Shown: piece after piece, positions 1 through 55,874 of the stretch | How positions within the stretch are numbered: the stretch's first letter is position 1 | Layout of the letters: each line of letters begins with the position of its first letter | From: Lepisosteus oculatus | Lineage: Eukaryota > Chordata > Actinopteri > Semionotiformes > Lepisosteidae | Length of the DNA: 64,000 nt | Direction: 5' to 3' | Assembly: GCF_040954835.1 (NCBI RefSeq) | Contig: NC_090704.1 | Coordinates: 44,334,979-44,398,978, forward strand | The notes under the pieces: model-generated | Seen by the model: the letters and a program-made list of their open reading frames with translations, nothing else | Databases searched by the model: none | What the model was told of the DNA's origin: nothing | Position numbers and translations under genes: made by a program

Positions 1-159
1 ACCGTCGCACAGTGATTCAGTGTTCAGTCAAATTAAAGATAATGACAACAACAGCAGTAACATCACAATGATATCGAATTTCAGCCTTTGCAGTAGTATA
101 GGATTGTTATTACAATCAGCTTGCGAAATGTCCAGTAAAGCTAAGTCCCTTTTCAGGCC

Positions 160-419
160 ATCAGAGGCCCATGGGGGAATGGGGGGAGGCAAGGGCCACC
201 ATTTTCTTGACCATCTGACACTGGAGGTGATGTGGTCAGCATCACACTCTGGCCAGCCTATTACCTCCGGTACTCATTTGGAAAGTAGGCTGAGTGGACC
301 TGGGAGCTGTCTGGAAGGAGATAGGGTAAGCCACATCACTTGCCCCTATGTGGGATTGAACCCAAGACCTACCTGTCAGGAGCCAGATGCCCTTGCCATC
401 TGAACTACCACGGCTCCGC
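160..419 (-). repeat. tRNA-derived SINE (minus strand)
   Basis: Read on the minus strand, the element starts near 418 with a tRNA-like head. It has an A-box-like stretch (TAGTTCAGATGG, around 395-406) and a B-box-like GGGTTCAATCCC (around 352-363), the internal RNA polymerase III promoter layout of tRNA-derived SINEs. The body runs to about 160 without coding potential. The family name is not known to me, and the inner end is approximate. Confidence 0.6.
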
Positions 420-2095
420 TGAATATACTGTATAGTAGTTTAAGTAAATCGGTTAAGGGAATGGAGAGTTGATTCAAGAACGCAATTTGTTCAAGGGGTA
501 TCCTTGTTCAATCAGTCCTGTAATCTAAACTTCCTCCAAGGATCCTTTACAGGAGAATCTGATAGAAAGTAATGGAAATACAACATCTGGTCTGTTGGAA
601 TTTAGAAAGCTGTTTACATGCATTGCACATGAAACTGTACCTGCCGTATGTTCGACAAGGTTTTTCCACTTGAAACTTCGGAATACAGTTTTTCATTTTG
701 CATGTAACTGTTTATCAGTCCCATCCTGTACATCCTTCCTGCTTTTCCCCGGGGTTCACAGCACCAGGTGATGATGCAGTGGCCCAGCTTTGCACCGCAA
801 ACATTCAACACAGCAGTGGGGAAAGAAGAACAGGTCAGATCAATGCCGACTTGCAAATCAGCACCGCAAGGAAAAACTATGGTACTGTCCCAGGAGGAAG
901 GTTTACTTGAGGAGAGCCGGTCCGGTTATTTGAAATTGCAAATGCCCTTCAGAATATCAGTCAGCCAGTTCCTTTTCTAATATTTGCAGAGTGTGACCCA
1001 TCTCGATGAAGGAAATGTCCAAGTGTAACTGAGTGAAGGTTCACTTCCATTCCATTCTTTTTGCACACCATAGGAGGTTGTCTGGTATTTATTTCCATTC
1101 GAGGAGTAAAACCTTAAATAGGATATATATTTGTATTTTTTAAAACAAGCATGGGTGTCCTGCACATATAGTATCTGTGAAGCTTGTAAAAAGAATTTGC
1201 ACATTGAAAAACAGCAGAAGGGAAAAATAAGTGGAGAAAATTGCAGAGATCCCAAACTGAACACTCTATTAATTCTGAATATTGCAGTAAATAATCGGAC
1301 TCTTCATTACAGAGGCTCAACCTCATGTCCAAACATTATTTTCTTTGGCTAAAGAAGTCGTGTTAAATTGATTAGGAGGTACAAACAGTGCAATGTGTAA
1401 TCCGACCAGCAATCTTTTAAAAAATCGATTGCACCTTAAATTAGACTTACCCTAACAAGCCCTACTTAAAAATCGCAGTCATTCACTGCACACTGTTGGA
1501 TCACATGCTCTAGACAGACTTTTACCTCATTAAGCAGAGATGCAGGACAAACTGGGCATGTTGTCCCCTGATCAAAGGAACTTGCCTGTAAAGGCCTCCA
1601 TTTACTATTAGCAATAACAGTTATCTACATTATGGCAAAGTACTGAAATGAATCATTTCTGAATTTATGTTTAAAGAATAATAATTCACCCTGTAGGTGG
1701 GATGCCACCTGCCTGCCAATATCTTTTGGTTTGACACATAACACTTGTTCTGTCAGTGGTCTCCAAAGGGGACAGTGTTAGTGGGCTGTGAAGGAAGGAG
1801 TAAAAATCACAGTCAATCTGTGCACGCTGTTGGATCACATGCAGCATGACTGCTCTGGATGGACTTTTAACTCATTCATCTAACGGAACACGCCAGCACG
1901 TTCCCCCAGTCAGGTGGGACATGGCCGTGGGTGCAGGTTTGAGCAGAGACGCAGGACAGACTTGGCACGTCGTCCGCTGGTCGCCTGGCCTTCACTGGGG
2001 GCAGATGCGAGGAACTGGGAGCAACAGCGGACTTTCACCAGCTCTACGTCCGCAAGCCGCCACCACAGATCCCCCGGGAGGGGGGACCCGCCGCG
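420..2095. other. 3' flank of the MCH receptor gene, no gene seen
   Basis: No convincing coding exon on either strand. The stretch contains an imperfect direct repeat (about 1470-1565 and 1802-1985). Because the receptor gene is on the minus strand, its 3' UTR should lie in the right-hand part of this interval, but I could not pick a convincing poly(A) signal. Confidence 0.5.
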
Positions 2096-3132
2096 TCAGC
2101 GGACCGCCACAGTGACGGGCAGCCCGCTGTGGGAGAAGTCCCCCAGGAACGGGCACTGCTGCAGGGACTCGGGGACCACTCTCAGGCTGACGCTGCCCTC
2201 CGTCGTGCTGTTGTTGACCCGGCACTCCTTGCTGGCGGGCCGGATGGCCACGACGAGCCGCCGCTTGAAGGTCTCGCTGAGGGCGATGTAGAGGAAGGGG
2301 TTGATGCAGCTGTTGGCGTATCCCAGGCTGATGGCGATGTTGTAGGCGTAGACGAAGGCGACAGTGGGCCTCTGCACGCCCAGATGGGCCAGCTGCAGGA
2401 TGTAGTAGGGAGCCCAGCAGACGAAGAAGGCCAGGCAGATGGCCACCGCCATGCGGGTGACCTTCCGGGTGCGCAGCCGCAGGCTCCTCGGGGGCAGGGG
2501 GGCCACGGAGGAAGACATGTGCTGGAGCATCTTGAAGTAGACAGCGCAGATGACGGCCAGGGGGAAGGCGAAAGCCAGCAGGAACTGGGAGAGGGTGAAC
2601 CAGTAGGCATCCGTGGCGGGGTTGGGCAACAGTAGGGCACAGCCCACAGAGCCGTCACTGAGGGGCATCAGGCCCGCGTACATCCAGACAGGGACGATGG
2701 TCAGGAGGGACAGCAGCCACACCAGGCCGATGACCGCCGCCGCCACGCAGGGCGTGCGCACGTAGTTGGACTGGATGGGGTGGACGGTGGCCAGGTACCT
2801 GTCCAGGGTCATGGCCGTGAGGATGTAGGTGCTGACGATCTGGCTGTTGGAGTCCAGCGCGGTGATGATGGTGCACATGGCGGCGCCGAAGCACCACGAG
2901 CCGTTGCCCAGCAGCTGGTGGATGAGGAAAGGCATCCCCAGCAGGAAGAGCAGGTCCACGATGGACAGGTTGAAGATGAAGATGTCTGGCACCGTTTGCT
3001 TGGCTCGGAACTTGGTCTTCTTCACGATGGTGTAGATCACGATGCAGTTCCCGATGATCCCCGAGAAACAGATGACCCCGAAAATGCTGGGCATGATCAC
3101 ATCGGTATAGGGCGCATGGCCCCTTTCCGCAG
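2096..3132 (-). CDS. mchr1b: MCH receptor exon 2 (seven-helix core, stop codon)
   Basis: Encodes residues 33-377. The acceptor is the cccag just upstream of 3132, preceded by a pyrimidine-rich tract on the minus strand. The last nucleotide of exon 1 plus CT completes an Ala codon, and the frame then runs through VIMPSIFG into TM1. A reading frame starting at the GTG near 3100 is only the exon interior, not a true start. The exon is very GC-rich compared with its flanks. Confidence 0.9.
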
Positions 3133-3986
3133 CTGGGAGGGAGACAGGGAATAACGGGGGTTAACGACGCGCTAAGCACTTCACGGCAGGACCTTGGAGT
3201 TACAGAACACTTGCAGAACTGTAACATTTTCCACATCGCTCAAATCGTTGCATTTTGTGGCTCGGCCGTTCAGATTCCCACTTTAGGTGTTGTTGTTTTT
3301 TTCAGACTGCATTCTTTAGGACATCAACAAAACAAGTCACGAGATACACCACCTGCGGCATTAAAAATGTAAACACCGGGCTGATTCTAGAAGGACCAGT
3401 CCACCCATACAAAACCGGGTAGATAAAACCAGTTGTAAAGACAAAAGGCGGTCGTTCAGTGAAAGAGCCCCCGTGTCTCCCGGGTTGCTAGGTCGAGTCA
3501 GAGACATCGATGCAGTTCAGGACTCCCGGTGCTCAATTCACAAGGGAATCGGCTCGGGGAGATTTGCTAAATGCAGCTTCTTCACACGTTCCTGCGATTT
3601 CAAAGTGTACGAAACGCATTCGTTTCGTAGAACTGGATTCTAATAACTTTGTAAATCGTGAAACCACATTACTGTAACAGGACAAATTCGTCTTTTTTCC
3701 TCTTTCACGCTTTGCTAAAATATTTCACCACATCGCCAAAATTGCTTGTCGAATTAAGCCAGTTCATTCGTCTGCTCACCAATACGTTAAACACTGCTTA
3801 TATAAACGACCTTCTCTCGGTGGAGACCTTGTCAGTAGTTAGAAGAAATGAAATAATACTTTGTTCCAAGTAAATTGGAGCGCTCTTACCTGTCTGGTTA
3901 CTGGAAGAATAATTTTTGGAGACGAGTGATGAGTTTACGTAGGTCATGTTTTCAAGAACGAAAGGTGTGTTTCTTTCAAAACCCAT
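2096..3986 (-). CDS. mchr1b: Melanin-concentrating hormone receptor, MCHR1 type (two exons)
   Basis: Rhodopsin-family GPCR for the neuropeptide MCH, expected in the plasma membrane and coupling to Gi/Gq. Exon 1 is 3986-3890 and exon 2 is 3132-2096; the splice joins GACAG|gtaag to cccag|CTGCGG in phase 1. The product is 377 aa. The N-terminus has four N-glycosylation sequons (N13, N18, N25, N30). Seven hydrophobic segments follow. Visible landmarks are D92 in TM2, C119 and C197 (the usual disulfide pair), D126 in TM3 (equivalent to the amine-binding Asp of human MCHR1), DRY at 143-145, CWAP at 271-274 and NPFLY at 310-314. Stretches such as LLFLLGMPF and FFVCWAPYY match MCHR1 much better than MCHR2. 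No break is seen. The gene is head-to-head with GRB2. The suffix 'b' is inferred from location and is uncertain. Confidence 0.9.
3133..3889 (-). other. Intron of the MCH receptor gene
   Basis: A 757 bp GT-AG intron between the N-terminal exon and the core exon. It has no recognisable repeat or nested gene. Confidence 0.8.
3890..3986 (-). CDS. mchr1b: MCH receptor exon 1 (extracellular N-terminus)
   Basis: Encodes the first 32 residues plus one base, beginning MGFERNTPF and ending SNQT before the donor GTAAGAG. Four NxS/T sequons in 32 residues fit the glycosylated N-terminal tail of MCHR1. The two-exon structure with a short first exon agrees with known MCHR1 genes. The start is inferred as the only upstream ATG in frame. 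Confidence 0.8.
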
Positions 3987-4534
3987 CAGTCTCAGAACTG
4001 TGATCTAGACACAATAACAACGCGTCAAACCAATGTTGTCAAATAAAAATCAGCTACTTCAAAATGCGAAGATACTTTGATGGAAAATCATATAAAAGTG
4101 TGAAAATTCAGCTGATTTTTTACTGTATTGAAAGACTTAGAAGAGCTATAAAATTGAGTCAGTGTCAATATTTTAACCCTTCGTGCCAATTGCTTATTTT
4201 CAATTAGATGCTCTTACATATGATTTGCTAGAATCGCTCCTATCGCTCGTATTAATTTCACGTCAGTAGGAAAGAAAGATGAATATTTCTGCTCTTTAAG
4301 CCTCCTCACCTACTGTTCGATCTGTTGTGCGCACGCAGATCTCAATCCGCACTGAGATGCTCCGAACTACCGATGTTTTGCTTCTGTTCGTCAGGTATTT
4401 CAAACTCGTCAGCCTCTGACGTGTAGCGAACGTGACCGCTCTCTTCACGTCCCGACTCCGTCTAGCGCCTCTCTCCCTGTGACACCCCAGTTCACGTCCA
4501 AGAATGCCACGGCTGTGTCTCAATTCTAGTCTGC

Positions 4535-4617
4535 TCTGATGTCTGTCTTGCTTTTCTTGGGCTGGGCTGCTGTAACGCCTCACTTTCCCGTAATTATGAT
4601 TAATGAAGTCTTATCTT
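4535..4617 (+). repeat. LINE-type 3' tail fragment
   Basis: The sequence reads TGATGTCTGTCTTGCTTTTC, then a CTGGGCTGCTGTAACG core, and ends in a degraded GATTAATGAAGTCTTATCT. A closely similar tail lies at 6520-6607. Endings of the type 'GGGATTAATAAAGT...ATCT' are typical of the 3' ends of fish non-LTR retrotransposons. The family is not resolved. Confidence 0.5.
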
Positions 4618-5504
4618 GAATATAGCGAGGCACTTGAACAAGAAATGTAAAGCTTAAGGTTGCAAATAATGCTTTAGATATAGAAAAAAAAAACAGTAAA
4701 TGAACCGTCAAAATTACATTGATAAACATTTAAATATAAAGATGGTTTATTATGTACTTAAACATTCCGTTAAGGTTAATAGCAACCCTGTTAAATCTAC
4801 TTTTAAGATATAAAATGTGTTCATAGAATTTCCAAGCCCTAATCTGAAGTGATAGCAACTAATTGGTGCCAGACTGTTCACGTTCCTCAGTCTAACTATT
4901 TATGATCAGAATCAAACACGTTCTAGAAATTTTCAAACTCCTGCTTTCTGCTTATCCGAAGGTGTCAGATTCTCAGCACTAAATGCGGTCGCCGCATCAG
5001 CAGGACCGGCGGCGAGTTTTTCCAGCACCACCTGGAAGCAGCGAGTCCTGTCCTGTGTGTCCTTGCCCACAAGGTGGCGCCAGAGGTCAGGGAATAAAAT
5101 CCCAGTTTCTTCACAGGCTTGGCGCTCACCGGCTGTTTCTCCGTTCGCGAAAGAAGTTGTTGTATAATCGCAGGCGGGGAGCGTATTCAGAATTTGTACA
5201 AGACAGGCTCACTGTAGCCTATAAATTAATCATAGTGCATGGTAATTAAAGGGAAATCATGACTTATTTAAGAGTATAGGATTTTAGGAAGAGATCTGGG
5301 CAAGGGCAGCCCCACCGCAAGCACATATCATGAGAACGAGGGGAGACCACTCGGCACATCTGTGTGCTGTGCGTGACAGTAGCTAAGGGATCTGAGCCAT
5401 CCTAGATCAGAGGTCACAAGCTGGATTCCAGGTTAGCCATGGTGTGTTATGCTTTCTCCCCCAACTCGAGCAGTCAATGAGTTGACCCCGCTGTTGTCTA
5501 CTCG

Positions 5505-5900
5505 GCCAGCAGCCGTGTCACACTGCCACACTGTCAACTCGCAACTGGCAGCCGCCTGAAGCTCAACAGGTGCCGGGTCAGTACCTGGATGGGAGACCTC
5601 CTGGGAAAAACGAAGGGTGCTGCTGGAAGGGGTGTTAGTGGGGCCAATAGGGGGCGCTCACCCTGCGCTCTGTGTGGGGCTAATGCCCCAGTATAGTGAC
5701 CTTGCAACTTGTAACAACTTGTAAAAAAAAGGCGCCGTCGTTTGTATGAAATGGAAAACCGAGCGCTTCTTGACAGGAGTGATCATGATCTCCTAATAAT
5801 CCCCATCTATGAACTGGCTCCATCACTCCACGCATTACCTGTAAAGCGCTTTGAGCGGAGAGTCCAGAAAAGCACTCTATAAGTGTAAGGAATTATTATT
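5505..5900 (+). repeat. 5S rRNA-derived SINE, complete-looking copy
   Basis: The head (about 5505-5625) resembles 5S rRNA: GAAGCTCAACAGG matches the 5S A-box region, and CTGGATGGGAGACCTCCTGG matches the intermediate element and C box of the 5S internal promoter. A unique body with TAGGGGGCGCTCACCCTG follows. The 3' end (GTAAAGCGCTTTGAG, then a CCAGAAAAGCACTCTATAAG block) resembles an L2-type LINE tail and finishes in ATTATT. This is SINE3-class architecture, presumably mobilised by an L2-like reverse transcriptase. A second copy is at 53146-53615 and a tail-only copy at 8613-8708. Confidence 0.75.
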
Positions 5901-6519
5901 ACCTATTTTTCTTACACATACCTAGTTTTTTTTCTTAATGCCTTGTACAGCCGACTGCCCACACGCATTCACTTCATTAAAAATAAACTCATCTATAAAC
6001 ACCTCGGAAATGGGTTAAAAACGCTACGGCTGTGCAGGTGAGTAAACAATTGAAACCAGCAATTAAGACCGAGCTCCGGGTCTGATAGGTCTCTTTAACC
6101 CTCCATCTCATGAAGAAGGAAAGGCGTCAAATTGCCCAGTTAAATCAATACGGATAGCAAATAAGGACTCGGGGTGGAAACAAGTTAGCATTTCCACCCG
6201 AGTATCTATAAAAGTCTACTCGGCTGAAGTATTGCTCTGACAGCAATGACAAGGAGCGCGGGAGAGCTGGAATTCGCACTTCCGCAATGAGTCACGACAA
6301 TGAGGGGAACACCTTTAATAGGGATACGAAGATGAAAAGACAGGCGAGATTGTATTATTGTAATATCGTAATATGCATTTGCTCCTCTATGGACAGCATG
6401 TTTACTCCATTGTACTTTTTTGGCAATCAGTGTGTATACACATATTTTATTGTTTTTACAGCGACTATGATCGGCACGTTTTGCACACACCTATGTATTT
6501 ATTTATTTTGTTTTATAAC

Positions 6520-6607
6520 TATTCTGATGTCTGTTTTGCTTGTCTTGGGCTGGACTGCTGTCACACATCCATTTCCCTACGGGATTAATAAAGTATTATC
6601 TATCTAT
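6520..6607 (+). repeat. LINE-type 3' tail fragment ending in (TATC)n
   Basis: Second copy of the tail seen at 4535-4617, here better preserved: CTTGGGCTGGACTGCTGTCA, then CCTACGGGATTAATAAAG and a short ATCT-type microsatellite. It is plus-oriented and abuts the minus-strand L2 fragment that starts at about 6616. Confidence 0.5.
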
Positions 6608-6615
6608 CGAACAAT

Positions 6616-6712
6616 AGTGGAAGGAGACGGTGGAAGGTGGCGCTAAGAAGAGCAGAGGGGTGAGGAATGGAACCAGTTCAGTAAAGGCTTTTCTGAAGAA
6701 GAGGGTTTTGAT
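6616..6712 (-). repeat. L2-type LINE 3' fragment (copy C)
   Basis: On the minus strand it encodes the end of an L2-like reverse transcriptase protein (KTLFFRKAFTELVPFLT) and short 3' sequence. It matches the same region of the longer copy at about 28190-28265. Heavily truncated and non-functional. Confidence 0.7.
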
Positions 6713-6774
6713 CATAGTGACCAAGGCAGCTTCGGAAGCGAGCATGCCCACCGGCCTGGCGGCTATGCTAATCT

Positions 6775-7115
6775 GACGCCCACCCCGCAGAGCCCCCAGC
6801 AAGGGGTCCGAGGCTCCTCCCCCTCACCCCCCGCCAAGCCCCGCCCCAGTCCCGCACGCCGCGGGCAGGTATCGCGAGATCCGGCTCGAGCCGTGAGGCA
6901 GGCAGCGAGCAGGACCGCATCTGGAAGGAAACGGAAATAAATATCGGGATTTTTTTTTTTAACGGGTACAAAAAAAAGAAGAAGAAAGGGGGGGGGGATT
7001 CAGAGAAAGGGTTACAAGTTACTATTCCTGTGTAACAAAGTGTGTATTTCCCAACCCCGAGAACGGTCAAGCTGTGTGTTTGAGCTGGATTCACCCGGTT
7101 AAAGTTGAAGTGGGG
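6775..7115 (+). promoter_or_regulatory. grb2: GRB2 core promoter and candidate non-coding exon 1
   Basis: A GC-rich, CpG-rich block with a GC box (GCCCCGCCCC, 6838-6847) and the palindromic TCGCGAGA motif (6872-6879), both common at housekeeping CpG-island promoters without a TATA box. A strong donor, GTGAGT at 7116-7121, could end a 5' non-coding exon at 7115 that splices to the ATG exon at 9388. The transcription start is inferred to lie around 6880-6950 and was not observed. Confidence 0.5.
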
Positions 7116-7626
7116 GTGAGTTACTGTTTTTTTTTTCTCTCTCTCGTCTCCTGTTATTTTGGCCTGGTGTTTTTTGAAACAGGAAAGACGCGAAGTGTTG
7201 TCTTCAGTTTTTTTTTTTCCGCTCCTGGGGCCTGGGACACAGTCAGCGTCCGAGGGAGGAAACCGAAAACAAGGAGCCCCCTAGAAAGTGGAAGTTTTTT
7301 TTTTAAAGAAAATAAATAGATAAGTCGGGGTGGGGGGAGAGACGCTCCTGACAGACGGCGTGCGGAGCAGCTCTCGGCTCGTCAGCGCTTCCCTTCGTCG
7401 TACCGACGGAGAGGTTATATATATATTTTTTTTTAAAAAAACCCGAGCGTTTCGCCCAGCGAGTGCGACACTTCGCCCCGATGTCAGCGCGGTCGCCCCG
7501 GTGCACAGGCGCCCAGATGTCCCCTCACGGTGCCAGTGCACGGCGAAGTTGGTGTTTGTTTGTTTTCCACCCCTCTTAATCACGAAATCCCAAATCAGGC
7601 CGGTGCCATCTAACGCCAGGGCTCCG

Positions 7627-7662
7627 GTTGTAGTAGTAGTAGTAGTAGTTGTTGTTGTTGGG
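7627..7662. repeat. Triplet microsatellite (TAG)n(TTG)n
   Basis: Runs of GTA/TAG units pass into TTG units just downstream of the candidate GRB2 exon 1. Simple tandem repeat with no further function seen. Confidence 0.85.
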
Positions 7663-8612
7663 GTTTTGAGGGCCATTAGCTAGAAGTGATCTTTGACTTG
7701 AGTGGTTGGTGTTGGCTGTCGAGTCTGCGAGCTACGGCGCAGGGCACAGCTGTTTATTAACTCCCATCGAGGAACCATCTAGAACAAATCCGGCTGGGAG
7801 ACTTCCCTGTCGGGACGGAGGGGGCTGTGCTCGGGTCATTCAGCGCGTAAGACCCTTTTAAACTTAAACTCACGAGTATTTATTCTGGACGAGCGATGCT
7901 ATTCGGTAGCGCAGTGGTTCAGAACGGATGCCTTCATTGGTTTTTCTTTCAACCAACATTTATTTATCGTTGCTGTTGTTTTCAAAAATGTGAATGTAGG
8001 CAGATTTCTTATTTATGTCTAGTCGGGATGTTTCGGGGGTATCGCTGGATCGATCTTTCCTGGCGTTATCGATAGTTTTGTCCAAGTTAATCGACACTTT
8101 GATTTCGAATTTCAATTGATAAATGTCATGAGTGGGGTAGGCAACAAACGTTTATGGGTGTAACTCGGTTGACGAAGTTACGAAAGGGATTACGAAGTTT
8201 GTTGTTCGCGATAAAACGGTAGTCGTGTTAAATAATATTCTTTGGAAGTTGTAAACGGTTGTAAATAAGATCGGGTCAGGTCTCGAGCGTGAAGTTTTAA
8301 GAAAACTGGCGATGGTGGGGTTGGATATTGAGTTGTGGAAATATTAATACCTTGTCTGCGACATTGGCTAGGTTTTCTAATTCTACGAAGAAAAAAATTA
8401 AGCTTTATTGTCTAGATCGATCAGCAATAAAAAAAGTAAAATGCTATACGAGAATTAAATTGCGCACATGATCAAAATACTGACGTCGCGAAGGAAGGTG
8501 GATCGAGACTTCCACGAAAGTTTTCTTAAGATGATGCTTTCCGTATTCTGCGAGACGTCTGCGGTTCAGGGTTTCTGACATTTTAAGAATTTATTATCGG
8601 TGGTGGTGGAGG

Positions 8613-8708
8613 GAATCTCCATTACCTGTAAAGCGCTTTGAGTGGAGTGTCCAGAAAAGCGCTATATAAGTGTAAGCAATTATTATTATTATTATTATTA
8701 TTATTATA
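8613..8708 (+). repeat. 5S-derived SINE 3' tail with (ATT)n
   Basis: Contains CATTACCTGTAAAGCGCTTT followed by GTCCAGAAAAGCGCTATATA, the same 3' end as the SINE at 5505-5900, and ends in about nine ATT units. The 5S head is missing, so this is a 5'-truncated copy. Confidence 0.75.
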
Positions 8709-9006
8709 ATTCGGAAGCAAACGCACAGTTCCTGTACACAAAGGGTTACTTTTTCTTGCATTCTTGTAAGAGCTGACGAATTATGTTTCCATCCTACATT
8801 TTAACGACTGTTTTTTTTCCCTGTTTCTCGGTGTGTGTTTTTAAGTCATAACGGGGAGCATTGACGTTAACGGCAAAACGCGACTGATCCCATGTGTGGC
8901 GCTTGTAGCTTTAAAGTGTTACTTTGTGCCATGTAGCAGACGGAGAGATCAATGCAGTGCATGATTGATAAATATGGAAGCGGCCTGTGGCCTATGCGGA
9001 GGCCGG

Positions 9007-9191
9007 ATTGGTCACTCCGCGGAAGCTGGGCTGATGTGTGATTGGCGCTGTCAACATTCCTGGCGGCTGATTGGACGAGCCGGAGGACTGGGGCGTCCCA
9101 TTGGTGGAGAGCGATTACGTCGGCTCTAATTGGACGTTATAAGCTTGCCCCATCCTGATTGGCTGTCGGGACGCAGTGGGGTTGCGGTTGG
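9007..9191 (+). promoter_or_regulatory. grb2: Periodic array of ATTGG (inverted CCAAT) boxes upstream of the GRB2 ATG exon
   Basis: Six perfect ATTGG pentamers begin at 9007, 9041, 9070, 9100, 9129 and 9158, and a GTTGG begins at 9187. Steps are 34, 29, 30, 29, 29 and 29 bp, and all face the same way. The DNA between boxes is not repeated, so the array is not an obvious minisatellite. CCAAT boxes are the binding site of the trimer NF-Y, and about 30 bp is close to three helical turns. The array lies about 200-380 bp upstream of the exon carrying the GRB2 start codon. It is either an intronic enhancer/alternative promoter or the main promoter. Confidence 0.6.
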
Positions 9192-9387
9192 CTAACTCGC
9201 ATGTCAGCCAGATGGTTTCCTTCCTCTTTTGCTGAGCGTTTGCCTTTCATTGCAAGTCGGATCTCCAGGGCGCGGCTCGATCAAACACTTTTAAATTAGT
9301 CCCTTATTATTATATTTTTGTGCTTTACTGATACTATTTAAATTACGTAGCCTGGGGAGGCTCACTGATGTATCTTTGCCTTTGCAG

Positions 9388-43658
<34,271 letters not shown>

Positions 43659-51426: not shown

Positions 51427-54400
51427 GTGTGCTCTGAGGACATGTGGGCAGCTGTTGTGGGGGCTTCAGTTCGTTGTCTTGCAGATGTTGTACGAGGAGG
51501 AGGGCAAGGACCGGGAGATTTGTACAATCTTTTCAAAGGTTGTACTTGTGTTGGTGGGAGGAACACGGTACAGCACATCACACCCCTTTAAAACACTTCA
51601 TCCATTTTTTTAACGAATGTATCCAGGACTTGGGGAGCCGGAGCCTATCCTGGCAGGCAATGGGAGTCAGGCAGGGTACACCCTGGATGGGACGCCAGTC
51701 CATGACAGTGCACGCAAAGACACAGGCGCAAACGTTAACACACTCACACCAGGGCCGGTTTCCCCAGAGACCATTGAACCTACCAGCATGTCTTTGTGAG
51801 GGAACCCACGTGAACATGGCGAGAACATACAAACTCCATGCAGATAGCAGCACCGTAATTGAACCCAGGACCCCAACGCTGCTGTGAGGCAGGAATGCTA
51901 ACTACTGCGCCACCGTGCTGCCTGCAAAACATTTCATGCTTTACAAAAGTAAAAAAAAAGGATTTAAGTACACAATGAAAATAGTATGCCAAACATGAAC
52001 GTTTACATTTCATTTGGATTTATTCCAAGTATAAATCTCCTGACGGCAACAATTAGGCAGCGTCTTTGAAAGCACCAGCACCCTGCAAGTAGTTTGTTTT
52101 GTAGCAGGAGGCTCTTCGGGCGCTCGAGCAACAGCTCCTCAGTGAAGCTCGAAAGGAACGTGTCCTGAACTCTGCCATTTCAGTCATTCGGCATGCTTAA
52201 CTGCTCTATTAAGAGATTCTTCCCAGGTGGACGAGCTTGCGTTGTCAGTGAGTGAGTGAGTCACTGGGCCCCACCCCAACCCACAGGGAAGCAAAGAGAA
52301 TAAGGCAGCCAAGCAGCCACAGTTAGAGATGCCCACAGTCTAACAGACACTCTCCTCCGGGAATCAGTTTGCAGGATAATCGCTCATTTATATAGGGCTC
52401 TGCCCGGTTTTCCTATCACATTAGCCGAAAAGATGAGTATTTTTACCCGCAGTAAAACTTGTAAATACATTTCAGGGAGTTTAATAGCCCTTCAAGGTTC
52501 TGCCTTGTTACTGCCATCACTCTGCCTTGAAGGTAGGTACTGAGTGTCCCGGAGCAGTGCTGAAGGCGAGGTCTGAGATTTCGGGATGCCGCGAAGGGAG
52601 CTTTTTCAGCGATGGCTGTCTCTGTGCCCGGTCTTGCAGCTGCAGATCGAGAAGGTGTCGGCGCGGTCTCCCCAGGGGAAGTACCACGGCCTGTGGCAGG
52701 CCTGCCAGCGCATCCGCGCGGAGGAGGGCCTGCGGGCTTTCTGGAAGGGCCACATCCCCGCCCAGCTCCTCTCCATCGGCTTCGGGGCCGTGCAGGTGTG
52801 CTGCCGTGCTCTCTCACCTGCTTTCTCCCCGTCGCAGGTCCCTTCTCGCACTCTCGTTTCAGGGGCTCCAGGCCCCCCCCGCTCTTCCTCTCTCCCTCCA
52901 CTCCTCCCTCTGCTTCTGGGAGGTTTCAAAGGAACACGAGAACAGGTTCGGGTACGAGGAGGCTGTTGCGCCCGTCTAGCCTGCCTGGATGTTTACTAGC
53001 TAATGAATCCGAAGATCTCATCCAGCCCTTTCTTTGAATACACCCAGGGTTCGGCTTCAGCCTCATAGCTTGGTAGCTTGTTCCATACTCCCGCAACCTT
53101 TTGGGTAAAGTAATGCTGCCTGTTTTTGGTTTTACATGCATTTACACCAGCAGCCATATCGCCCTGCAGCTCACAGCTGGCAGCCCACTGAAGCTCAGCA
53201 GGTGTGAGCCTGATGGGAGACCTCCTGGGAAAAACTAAGGTTGCTGCTGGAAGAGGTGTTAGTGGGGCCAGCAGGGGGCGCTCACCCTGCAGTCTATGTG
53301 GGTCCTAATGGCCCAGTATAGCGACGGGGACACTATACTGTAAAAAGGTGCCGTCCTTCAGATGAGACGTAAAACCAAGGTCCTGACACCCTGTGGTCAT
53401 TAAAAATACCAGGGTGAGTAGGGGTGTAACCTTACCAATCATGGCCTGCTATTAATCCCTGTCTATGAACTGGCTTCATCACTCTGCTCTCCTCCCCACT
53501 GAGAGCTGGTGTGTGGGGAGAGTACTGGTGCACTATGGCTGCCAGGTGGGAGTAACACACAGTGGTCGTGGAGAAGAGTCCCCATTACCTGGAATTGTAT
53601 TTCATTATTATTATTTCCACTACACAACTGGTCTCAGATTGGTCCGCTCTGCACTCTGTGTCCAGCTACTGTGTGCCCCTTTCTCTCCTTCACTCTGTTC
53701 ATTTCCTTTCTCATTTGCTGCCTGTAATCCTTGCTGAGATTCTCCTTTTCCTCTGCAGTGGAAAGTTCAGACATATAGTGTCAATTATATCACTGCTATA
53801 CGTGGAAAAAAAAACTAAACAAAACATGGTGAGTTATTGAATTGAGAAAGAAGGGTGACCGAGACGGTTTGTCCCGTTTTATCCTGTTTCCTCAGTTCGC
53901 CAGTTTTGAGTTCCTGACGGAGTTTGTGCACAAGGCCACCCCCTACAACAGCAGGACGGCAGGGGTGCACTTCGTGTGCGGGGGGCTCGCAGCCTGCTCG
54001 GCCACTGTGGCCTGCCAGCCCCTGGACACCCTCCGCACGCGTTTCGCAGCTCAGGGAGAGCCCAAGGTGAGGGCTGACAGCTCAGACCGAGGCACCAGAG
54101 ACAGAGCACTTCGCTGGTCACGATGTGTCTGGGCTCATACCTCCCAAAGCAGGAGAAAGAACAGGCCATACTGCTTTGTTATTTGTTATTTAATCCTTTC
54201 ATTTTTATTCACATATAGATTCGGCCCCTGTACCTTCATTTATTACCTCTGATGTTGACCATTTGCATGGGTCATACATATGTTGTGTTATTGGCGTGTG
54301 TGCCTTTAGGCTAAGTTAAAGCACCTTTTGTCTGCTGTGTTCCAGTTCACCTTGGGGTTTTGTTGTTTTGAAGGTGTACCATAACCTGAGGCATGCCCTG

Positions 54401-55874
54401 TCCACTATGTATCGCACTGAGGGTGTCCTTGCATTCTACCGGGGCCTGACGCCCACCATGATCGCCGTCTTCCCCTACGCTGGGATGCAGTTCTTCTTCT
54501 ACAACATCTTACAGCACGTCTACCTTTGGGCCATGCACAGCAATGCCAGCGCCACAGGTCAGGGGTCAGGGGTCAGGGGTCAGGGGTTAGGGGTCACAGG
54601 GTCATGGCCAGAGCTGCAAGGGAGCCAGGCTCGTGGTTTTCCGGGCCAATAGGAGGGGAGCCATCCCCCCTTCCAGCTGAAGGGGTTGGGGAATGAGTGA
54701 CTTACATTTGCTTTGGCAACACTGATTGTAGCCATCGGTCATGCTAATAAAGCACCTTGAATTGAATTGAACAGGGGAGATGTGGATGAAGATGAGTCCC
54801 AGTAGACACGTTAATCGAAAGAAAATGCATAAACCAAGTAAAATACATCATGAGACAGTCAAACAAGTCCAGATGCGACTTATCAGAAGGATATGGTTCT
54901 AGCGTTCAGGAGAGGATGTCTTAAAAAGACAGGTTGCATGAGAATTGAACAGTTCTTGCTCTGGAAAATGATTAACTGTTTTTTTCTCCCATCATCAGAG
55001 TATCTTCGGTTTTCTCTCATTTCAGATAATGTTCGTAACCTCGTGTGTGGTGGCTGTGCTGGGGTGATCAGCAAGACCATCACCTACCCTTTTGACCTCT
55101 TCAAGAAGAGGCTGCAGGTCCGGGGGTTTGAGGAGGCCAGGATCCCCTTTGGACAGGTAAGCTCTCACCTCCTTTTCCTCGTCTCCCCCTAATTCATGTT
55201 GTCCGAGTATCTGTTCATCTACTGCGACTAAACTTTCCTTTCCTCTAAAACACGAGTAATCGTGACAGCCATTCCCTCAGCAGGGCAGCGGGTGTTGTAA
55301 TTATTGACAATTTATTTGGCTGATGTTTTTTTTTTAAAAAGCGATTCGCTGGACAGCCGCTGTGCTTGCGAACAGATCAGGGACAGAGCCTTTGTCATTG
55401 AGAGGTTGGCCGGTTGTAAGGAAGGAAAAGGAAGTACCTGCAGGTCCTCCCAAGTGATACAAATGACTCAAGAGTTTCCAGCCCATTCGTTGTCATTCTG
55501 TGTGCAGAAGGTGCCGTGCTTCTTCATTGCATGGTCCGCTCTAAACAGATCGAGAGCACGTGGAGGAATCTAAGTGTGCTGAAGGGTATAACAGCAGTGC
55601 CAAACCATCTTAACCTCACCTAGTCTATGTCCTCATCGGCGTTGCAGGGGGGGTGTTTCAGGAGGGTTAACTGTGTCTGTTGTTTGCGAAGGTCCGGTCG
55701 TACCAGGGGTTTGTGGACTGCATGGCGAAGATCGCCCAGGAGGAGGGCCTGCGGGGCTTCTTTAAGGGCCTCTCCCCGAGCCTGATCAAGGCGGCCATGT
55801 CTACGGGGTTCACCTTCTTCTGGTACGAGCTCTTCTGCGACTCCCTGCGCCTCCTGAGGGGAAGGAGGGACTGA
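51295..55874 (+). CDS. slc25a19: Mitochondrial thiamine pyrophosphate carrier SLC25A19, six coding exons
   Basis: Inner mitochondrial membrane carrier that imports thiamine pyrophosphate for pyruvate and oxoglutarate dehydrogenases. Coding exons are 51295-51426, 52640-52795, 53896-54066, 54374-54557, 55026-55156 and 55692-55874. All phases agree, giving 318 aa (human: 320, from memory). The three mitochondrial-carrier repeats each keep PX[DE]XX[KR]: PLDVVK (35-40), PLDTLR (138-143) and PFDLFK (236-241). The start MVGYDP, CGGLAAC (124-130), [11 protein letters not shown] and VISKT.TYP identify the family member. Glycines 125 and 177, altered in human disease alleles, are both present. It sits between GRB2 and MIF4GD on the same strand. 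No damage is seen. Confidence 0.95.
51427..52639 (+). other. slc25a19: SLC25A19 intron with SINE and possible cassette exon
   Basis: Contains the tRNA-headed SINE at 51599-51923 and, at 51485-51538, a stretch flanked by a good acceptor and a weak donor that would add 18 codons in frame. The remainder holds nothing recognised. Confidence 0.7.
51599..51923 (-). repeat. tRNA-headed SINE, near-complete copy (minus strand)
   Basis: On the minus strand it begins GGCAGCACGGTGGCGCAGTA, with an A-box-like GTGGCGCAGTAGTTAGCA. The B-box-like GGGTTCAATTAC is followed by GCATGGAGTTTGTATGTTCT. It continues to the block read as GTCATGGACTGGCGTCCC near 51692-51709 and ends at the AGGCTCCGGCTCCCC block. This family is widespread in fishes; I do not assign a name. 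Fragments occur at 32530, 48010 and 49196. Confidence 0.75.
52640..52795 (+). CDS. slc25a19: SLC25A19 coding exon 2 (residues 45-96)
   Basis: Acceptor GGTCTTGCAG, donor CAG|GTGTGC. Encodes [10 protein letters not shown] to GFGAVQ, with the matrix helix and [15 protein letters not shown] of repeat 1. Confidence 0.93.
52796..53895 (+). other. slc25a19: SLC25A19 intron hosting a 5S-derived SINE
   Basis: A 1.1 kb intron. Its central part is the plus-strand SINE at 53146-53615. Nothing else recognised. Confidence 0.8.
53146..53615 (+). repeat. 5S rRNA-derived SINE, long copy
   Basis: The head CAGCCATATCGCCCTG aligns with the start of 5S rRNA (GGCCATACCACCCTG). GAAGCTCAGCAGG and TGATGGGAGACCTCCTGGG match the 5S internal promoter. 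The body carries CAGCAGGGGGCGCTCACCCT and a GTCCTTCAGATGAGACGTAA block, longer than in the copy at 5505-5900. It ends in (ATT)n without the full GTAAAGCGCTTTG tail block. Confidence 0.8.
53896..54066 (+). CDS. slc25a19: SLC25A19 coding exon 3 (residues 97-153)
   Basis: Acceptor GTTTCCTCAG, donor AAG|GTGAGG. Encodes [10 protein letters not shown] through [10 protein letters not shown], with the second PX[DE]XX[KR] signature. Confidence 0.94.
54067..54373 (+). other. slc25a19: SLC25A19 intron between coding exons 3 and 4
   Basis: A 307 bp unique intron. Nothing recognised. Confidence 0.85.
54374..54557 (+). CDS. slc25a19: SLC25A19 coding exon 4 (residues 154-214 plus one base)
   Basis: Acceptor TTGTTTTGAAG. 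Encodes [10 protein letters not shown] through MHSNASAT and includes G177. The donor GTCAGG is itself the first unit of a GTCAGGG tandem repeat, so neighbouring units offer alternative donors. The phase-1 end agrees with exon 5 (G|AT = Asp). Confidence 0.9.
54558..54603 (+). repeat. GTCAGGG tandem repeat at a splice donor
   Basis: Four perfect GTCAGGG units, then GTTAGGG and GTCACAGGG variants. The first GT is the donor of SLC25A19 coding exon 4. Confidence 0.85.
54658..54772 (+). repeat. LINE-type 3' tail ending in (AATTG)n
   Basis: Ends TAATAAAGCACCTTGAATTG AATTGAA, a characteristic fish non-LTR retrotransposon 3' end. Upstream coding sequence is not recognisable. Lies in the intron after SLC25A19 coding exon 4. 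Confidence 0.55.
55026..55156 (+). CDS. slc25a19: SLC25A19 coding exon 5 (residues 215-258)
   Basis: Acceptor CTCATTTCAG, donor CAG|GTAAGC. Encodes [10 protein letters not shown] through EARIPFGQ, with the third carrier signature. Confidence 0.94.
55157..55691 (+). other. slc25a19: SLC25A19 last intron
   Basis: A 535 bp intron. Nothing recognised. Confidence 0.85.
55692..55874 (+). CDS. slc25a19: SLC25A19 coding exon 6 (residues 259-318, stop)
   Basis: The acceptor is TTGTTTGCGAAG, an AAG-type site with a modest pyrimidine tract. Encodes [10 protein letters not shown] through LRGRRD and ends with TGA at 55872-55874. Contains [15 protein letters not shown] of the last transmembrane pair. Confidence 0.93.

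Follow-up and report, generated by a model that had tools for sequence, protein, structure and literature searches.

Evenly spaced same-strand CCAAT boxes upstream of the GRB2 start codon in Lepisosteus oculatus: a candidate tandem NF-Y element

The GRB2 locus and its CCAAT boxes

The 64,000-nt stretch of Lepisosteus oculatus DNA analyzed here (the window) contains GRB2, five coding exons of which could be placed: the start-codon exon and further exons at ~36.9, 40.4, 42.5, and 43.5 kb, which match a human GRB2 sequence at 91 to 93% identity (the first at 89%). This confirms the identity of the exon beside which an earlier note, made from the sequence alone, had reported a regular array of CCAAT boxes. 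The array lies ~430 bp upstream of the start codon, and its coordinates are given with those of the surrounding features in Table 1.

Three other coding features occur in the window. An uninterrupted open reading frame (ORF) for a rhodopsin-type G protein-coupled receptor (2096 to 3160, minus strand; Pfam 7tm_1, E = 6.5e-53), which by eye resembles melanin-concentrating hormone receptors, is oriented head to head with GRB2. Inside GRB2, an ORF at 28241 to 29278 (minus strand) resembles a LINE reverse transcriptase, with a Pfam RVT_1 match (E = 1.7e-4) below the cut-off. Downstream of GRB2, the exons of a mitochondrial carrier (53833 to 54652, plus strand) presumably belong to SLC25A19, as judged from synteny.

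Table 1. Coordinates of the array and of features near the 5′ end of GRB2
Feature	Position	Strand	Remarks
Probable main GRB2 promoter	6830–6980	+	GC-box at 6841, TCGCGAGA at 6872; near skew break
Best splice donor of 7000–9600, GGG/GTGAGT	7113–7121	+	Intron from 7116; candidate end of noncoding exon 1
CpG-retaining block	7201–9900		CpG o/e 0.61–2.31 in 200-bp windows; covers inferred intron 1 and start-codon exon
Whole array, six ATTGG and one GTTGG	9007–9191	+	Unrelated spacers; 8850–9390 single copy
ATTGG box 1	9007–9011	+	G directly before
ATTGG box 2	9041–9045	+	TG directly before
ATTGG box 3	9070–9074	+	CTG directly before
ATTGG box 4	9100–9104	+	CC directly before
ATTGG box 5	9129–9133	+	TA directly before; weakest flank relative to consensus
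ATTGG box 6	9158–9162	+	CTGATTGGCT; nearest to NF-Y consensus
GTTGG, degenerate seventh box	9187–9191	+	In register
5′ untranslated part of start-codon exon	9388–9615	+	Candidate first bases 9388, 9519, 9522
Coding part of GRB2 start-codon exon	9616–9693	+	26 residues, start of first SH3 domain

Counting the degenerate seventh box, the distances between box starts are 34, 29, 30, 29, 29, and 29 bp; a re-scan reproduced the positions, steps, and strand of the earlier note to the base, and no exact box occurs on the opposite strand within 9007 to 9191. If a tandem element is defined by at least two CCAAT boxes in the same orientation, this one has six exact members and one degenerate member spread over ~185 bp, which is roughly the length of one nucleosome. 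The NF-Y consensus is approximately YSATTGGYY, from which boxes 1 to 4 depart at one flanking position and box 5 at two (read by eye).

The CpG-rich setting ascribed to the array is borne out: positions 9001 to 9200 have a GC content of 0.60 and a CpG observed/expected ratio (o/e) of 0.93, compared with a CpG o/e of 0.54 for the whole window. The putative intron 1 also contains a stretch of odd composition (8001 to 8600), which is AT-rich (GC content, 0.36 to 0.41) with a CpG o/e of ~1.5 to 2.3. The endoplasmic reticulum stress element (ERSE; CCAAT-N9-CCACG) is absent from 8801 to 9620, and no Rfam RNA reaches its gathering score within 6000 to 10500.

Position of the array relative to the probable main GRB2 start

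Three features bear on where GRB2 transcription begins. The first is strand skew. When T/A and G/C skews are added in 500-bp bins, the total departs from zero by no more than 0.11 in the bins covering 1 to 7000 and amounts to 0.22 to 0.36 in those covering 7001 to 9500; all later bins up to 20 kb are positive as well (minimum 0.05, at 9501 to 10000). After masking of simple repeats, the best single break falls at 7626 (interval, 6331 to 7971; log-likelihood gain, 18.8). The masked skew rises only from ~7.5 kb, apart from one earlier 500-bp window (6251) at 0.18, such that it does not pin the main start to 6.9 kb; it is back to about 0 in the windows from 9251 and 9501. The second feature is the splice donor at 7116, scored with an approximate donor matrix. 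The third is the TCGCGAGA motif, the core of the Kaiso site TCTCGCGAGA, which reads TATCGCGAGA here; it is the only copy in the window, but 38 of 100 shuffles also contain one, making it unremarkable by itself. A figure legend in PMC12133338 places a Kaiso site in the GRB2 promoter on the basis of ENCODE data.

Taken together, the strand skew, the donor, and the Kaiso-type site point to a main GRB2 start near 7 kb, ~1 to 2.7 kb upstream of the array, which is therefore probably not the main promoter. On this gene model, noncoding exon 1 would end at 7115 and the array would lie inside intron 1. In a GRB2 paralogue (L071), the start-codon exon is likewise preceded by an acceptor-like site, located 79 nt upstream of the ATG.

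Should the array instead be the main GRB2 promoter, transcription would start at ~9220 to 9290, and the leader would extend into the exon with the start codon, with a possible short intron between a donor-like site at 9409 and an acceptor at 9519. The array is CpG-rich, its boxes would lie ~30 to 280 bp upstream of such a start (a usual position for CCAAT boxes), the site at 9409 is the third best donor in 7000 to 9600, an acceptor-like site precedes 9519, and the masked skew falls just past the array. We nevertheless regard this arrangement as unlikely: skew of the transcription type is already present 1.5 to 2 kb upstream of the array, a single break at ~9200 attains a log-likelihood gain of just 8.2 and is worse than the best break by ~10 log units (masked; 3300 to 20000), and a separate promoter-like stretch exists at 6.83 to 6.98 kb. 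Between the two roles that the earlier note had offered, GRB2 promoter or intronic enhancer, the intronic one thus fits better, and the main promoter is disfavored by the skew, the donor, and the site at 6872. No description of CCAAT boxes or NF-Y in the GRB2 promoter was found in the open-license PMC literature.

Regularity of the array

Short words such as ATTGG will cluster by chance, and the outcome of a chance calculation depends on whether spacing is considered. In the window, ATTGG occurs 91 times versus 167 predicted from dinucleotides, and two 2-Mb runs of first-order Markov sequence produced no six-box cluster within 155 bp. For the 1.2-Gb assembly (813 contigs), six same-strand boxes within 152 bp are expected 0.19 times at the observed ATTGG density and 11 times under the dinucleotide model; clustering alone, with pitch ignored, is hence indecisive on a genome-wide scale. 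When four steps in a row must also measure 29 or 30 bp, the analytic expectation in 1.2 Gb drops to between 1.7e-7 and 9.8e-6. With the span fixed and a 24-bp minimum imposed, the probability that four of the five steps between exact boxes share a 2-bp bin is 0.011, and it is 0.0017 for five of six steps when GTTGG is included. All of these tests are post hoc, the pattern having been known beforehand.

The array is too regular for chance. A functionless chance cluster, for which the density model would allow 0.2 to 11 occurrences per genome if pitch is disregarded, is very improbable given an expectation of 1e-7 to 1e-5 at the observed pitch and the position of the array in CpG-rich DNA beside an exon.

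Spacers and repeat ancestry

Regular spacing could also be inherited from a tandem repeat. Tandem Repeats Finder, run with a score threshold of 30, detects a single repeat between 8000 and 10500, an ATT microsatellite at 8679 to 8711. Spacers that align with one another as a decayed minisatellite had been named in the earlier note as grounds for abandoning its view of the array; in this comparison, similarity among spacers does not exceed that among their own shuffles, whether measured as a gapped total (P = 0.35) or in register (P = 0.096), and two scorings yield z values of 0.7 and 0.5. A search of the 1.2-Gb genome with 8850 to 9390, in which very common words are skipped, returned one match, the query itself. 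The description of the DNA between the boxes as nonrepeated accordingly holds, and with unrelated spacers in a single-copy stretch, we rejected both a recognizable minisatellite and an LTR or SINE mobile element as the source of the array.

A mobile element with tandem CCAAT repeats would be comparable to human LTR12, in which CCAAT boxes are 24 and 41 bp apart according to PMC4982600. The steps of the array differ from these, and the sequence matches nothing else in the genome, so that we consider such an origin extremely improbable.

The array does not appear to be common to the two closest GRB2-like genes: in L071 and L072, whose start-codon exons are 69 and 72% identical, the 3.1 kb around this exon contains no comparable array, and we rejected a shared array for these two genes.

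ATTGG arrays elsewhere in the genome

Three-box ATTGG patterns with steps of 28 to 31 bp occur at 328 places genome-wide. The counts for reversed patterns (8992 and 10982) far exceed those for ATTGG, presumably swollen by telomere-like GGTTA repeats, and were set aside. Among those of the 328 places that extend from C1 to most of C4 (about one-quarter of the genome), all of them arrays with two consecutive steps of 28 to 31 bp, 36 clusters were recognized by eye and 30 were examined; the six left out resemble plain tandem repeats (C2:69821371, C3:18757897, C3:74619453, C4:2722011, C4:9915188, and C4:13759227). Because the search imposes the step length, the sampled arrays say nothing about step preference. 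Loci from a wider pattern were examined as well (L022, L026, L028, and L059 to L061 around three places); one of these, L061, has five boxes and related spacers (z = 15.7).

All eight of the 30 sampled clusters with at least five boxes have clearly related spacers, with z values of 11 to 52. Unrelated spacers (z < 2) characterize 13 clusters, 12 with three boxes and one (L052) with four. The GRB2 array, with six boxes and a z of 0.5, is without equal among the 30. Two of the sampled clusters are four-box arrays with constant steps in CpG-rich DNA: L052 (C2:77780031; four boxes; steps 30/30/30; CpG o/e, 0.81) has unrelated spacers (z = 0.2) and is a possible analogue, and the CpG-rich L053 (C4:65520852; four boxes; steps 31/31/31) has partly similar spacers (z = 5.4) and is a possible intermediate.

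Spacers are unrelated in 6 of 7 CpG-rich clusters (o/e ≥ 0.65) versus 7 of 23 CpG-poor ones (Fisher P = 0.015), with a cut-off picked post hoc and with related copies included (the six contain L018 and L079; the seven contain, by eye, L007 and L084). This hints that arrays with unrelated spacers are commoner in CpG-rich DNA, to which the GRB2 array also belongs.

Six minisatellites (L009, L054, L055, L056, L058, and L082) have units of ~30 to 32 bp, contain 5 to 11 ATTGG boxes, and lie in DNA with a low or moderate CpG o/e (0.10 to 0.53); they are NF-Y-compatible arrays that arose by tandem duplication. A multicopy three-box family, recognized by eye, shares GATTGGGTGA...CTCTGATTGG or a near version of it and is represented by L018 (1501 to 1566), L079, C1:33016074, C1:34137332, and C1:68796726; the L018 and L079 copies are CpG-rich, with steps of 31/30. 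One ORF beside each of three array loci (L064, L067, and L068) gave no Pfam match.

These surveys bear on a repeat origin in which the array descends from a minisatellite with a ~29- to 30-bp unit containing ATTGG, or from one later adopted by NF-Y, such that the boxes were selected and the spacers became saturated. The genome does contain clear ATTGG minisatellites like the six above (steps mostly 30 to 32 bp), L053 illustrates a partly diverged case in CpG-rich DNA, a faint remnant is compatible with the fairly low in-register P (0.096), and the ABO minisatellite enhancer, on which work by Kominato in 1997 (cited in PMC10067109) reportedly found NF-Y, sets a precedent for NF-Y acting on such a repeat. 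The spacers of the GRB2 array, however, have no residual similarity, unlike those of the other eight arrays with at least five boxes, and a shared origin would require at least ~1.7 substitutions per site between spacers (a rough bound), too many for all six boxes to survive intact in a remnant evolving neutrally. We judge descent from a minisatellite to be quite unlikely. Retention of the boxes alongside spacers without residual similarity is what would be expected if the boxes and their pitch are what matters.

Spacing, close packing, and helical phase

That NF-Y reads tandem CCAAT boxes at such spacing is described in parts of PMC4982600. The same parts of that source give 24 bp as the minimum distance for adjacent NF-Y trimers; all steps of the array (29 to 34 bp) exceed this value, and steps of 29 to 30 bp would therefore place neighboring trimers in close packing.

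The earlier note had gone further and proposed that the trimers occupy one face of the DNA, which the phases do not support. At 10.5 bp per turn, the seven boxes lie at 0, 86, 0, 309, 223, 137, and 51 degrees, a scattered arrangement with a mean vector length of 0.30; across 10.2 to 10.6 bp per turn, and assuming unbent B-DNA, this length ranges from 0.30 to 0.35 for all seven boxes and from 0.21 to 0.54 for the first six. We thus rejected a common helical face for straight B-DNA, and the steps lack the 10- to 11-bp periodicity that parts of PMC4982600 describe for the spacing in human tandem CCAAT promoters. NF-Y bends DNA by ~80 degrees, as also stated there, and the true phasing of the boxes in bent DNA may differ from that in straight B-DNA.

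Proposed function

On balance, we favor, if by a modest degree, the reading of the array as a tandem NF-Y element in GRB2 intron 1 with the role of a second promoter or an enhancer. NF-Y trimers, six or perhaps seven in number, could sit almost side by side over ~185 bp and hold this DNA free of nucleosomes as an open island within the intron. The open array could then serve as a second, downstream GRB2 promoter with initiation at ~9220 to 9290, the usual initiation distance being 60 to 100 bp past the last CCAAT box; alternatively, it could enhance, from within the intron, transcription from the promoter near 7 kb, and we divide our expectation about evenly between these outputs. We infer NF-Y binding, nucleosome exclusion, the position in intron 1, and the output of the array from sequence. 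Parts of PMC6624317 report that, in mouse embryonic stem cells, NF-Y keeps nucleosome-depleted regions open at promoters and that CCAAT motifs are more numerous in targets with a shifted start after loss of NF-Y.

A bolder form of this proposal, which we put forward as a long shot, is an NF-Y “filament”: six or seven histone-fold trimers, winding around the helix at a fixed pitch of 29 to 30 bp, would take the place of roughly one nucleosome within intron 1 of GRB2 and set an alternative start. Here, pitch rather than helical face would be constrained, and any ancestry of the spacers would have been erased during long assembly or retention of the array.

If the pitch proves to be conserved while the spacers drift, the array would offer a natural test of close packing of NF-Y versus a shared helical face, and of the ability of consecutive histone-fold trimers to replace a nucleosome at a central signaling gene. 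If the pitch is not conserved, the array would exemplify the gain and loss of regular box arrays next to promoters.

Comparison with known systems

Tandem CCAAT elements are well known; what is unusual at GRB2 is that the boxes are so many, that their pitch is nearly constant, and that no repeat ancestry can be detected. The ABO enhancer resembles the array in having NF-Y sites in a repeated arrangement near a gene, but it is a true repeat, whereas the spacers at GRB2 are unrelated.

The array also resembles the class of tandem CCAAT (NF-Y/c-Fos) promoters described in parts of PMC4982600, in which same-strand boxes within promoter-type DNA are separated by about three turns of the helix. Members of that class are mainly dimers, with distance peaks at 31, 41, and 52 bp, in contrast with six or seven boxes at 29 to 30 bp (distances in that source are “edge-to-edge,” and the difference between 29 and 31 bp should not be over-read), and the GRB2 array, unlike them, is probably not located at the main promoter.

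In the number of boxes, the array is matched by the P4HB (PDI) promoter, which, according to a passage of PMC3500226 citing Tasanen 1992, has six CCAAT elements close together, mutation of any of which cut activity by up to 50%; the six P4HB boxes differ in being spread within 378 nt. Finally, LTR12 (ERV9) carries same-strand CCAAT arrays that are bound by NF-Y, as described in parts of PMC4982600, and NF-Y binding at GRB2 is putative; LTR12 is a repetitive element, whereas the GRB2 stretch is single copy.
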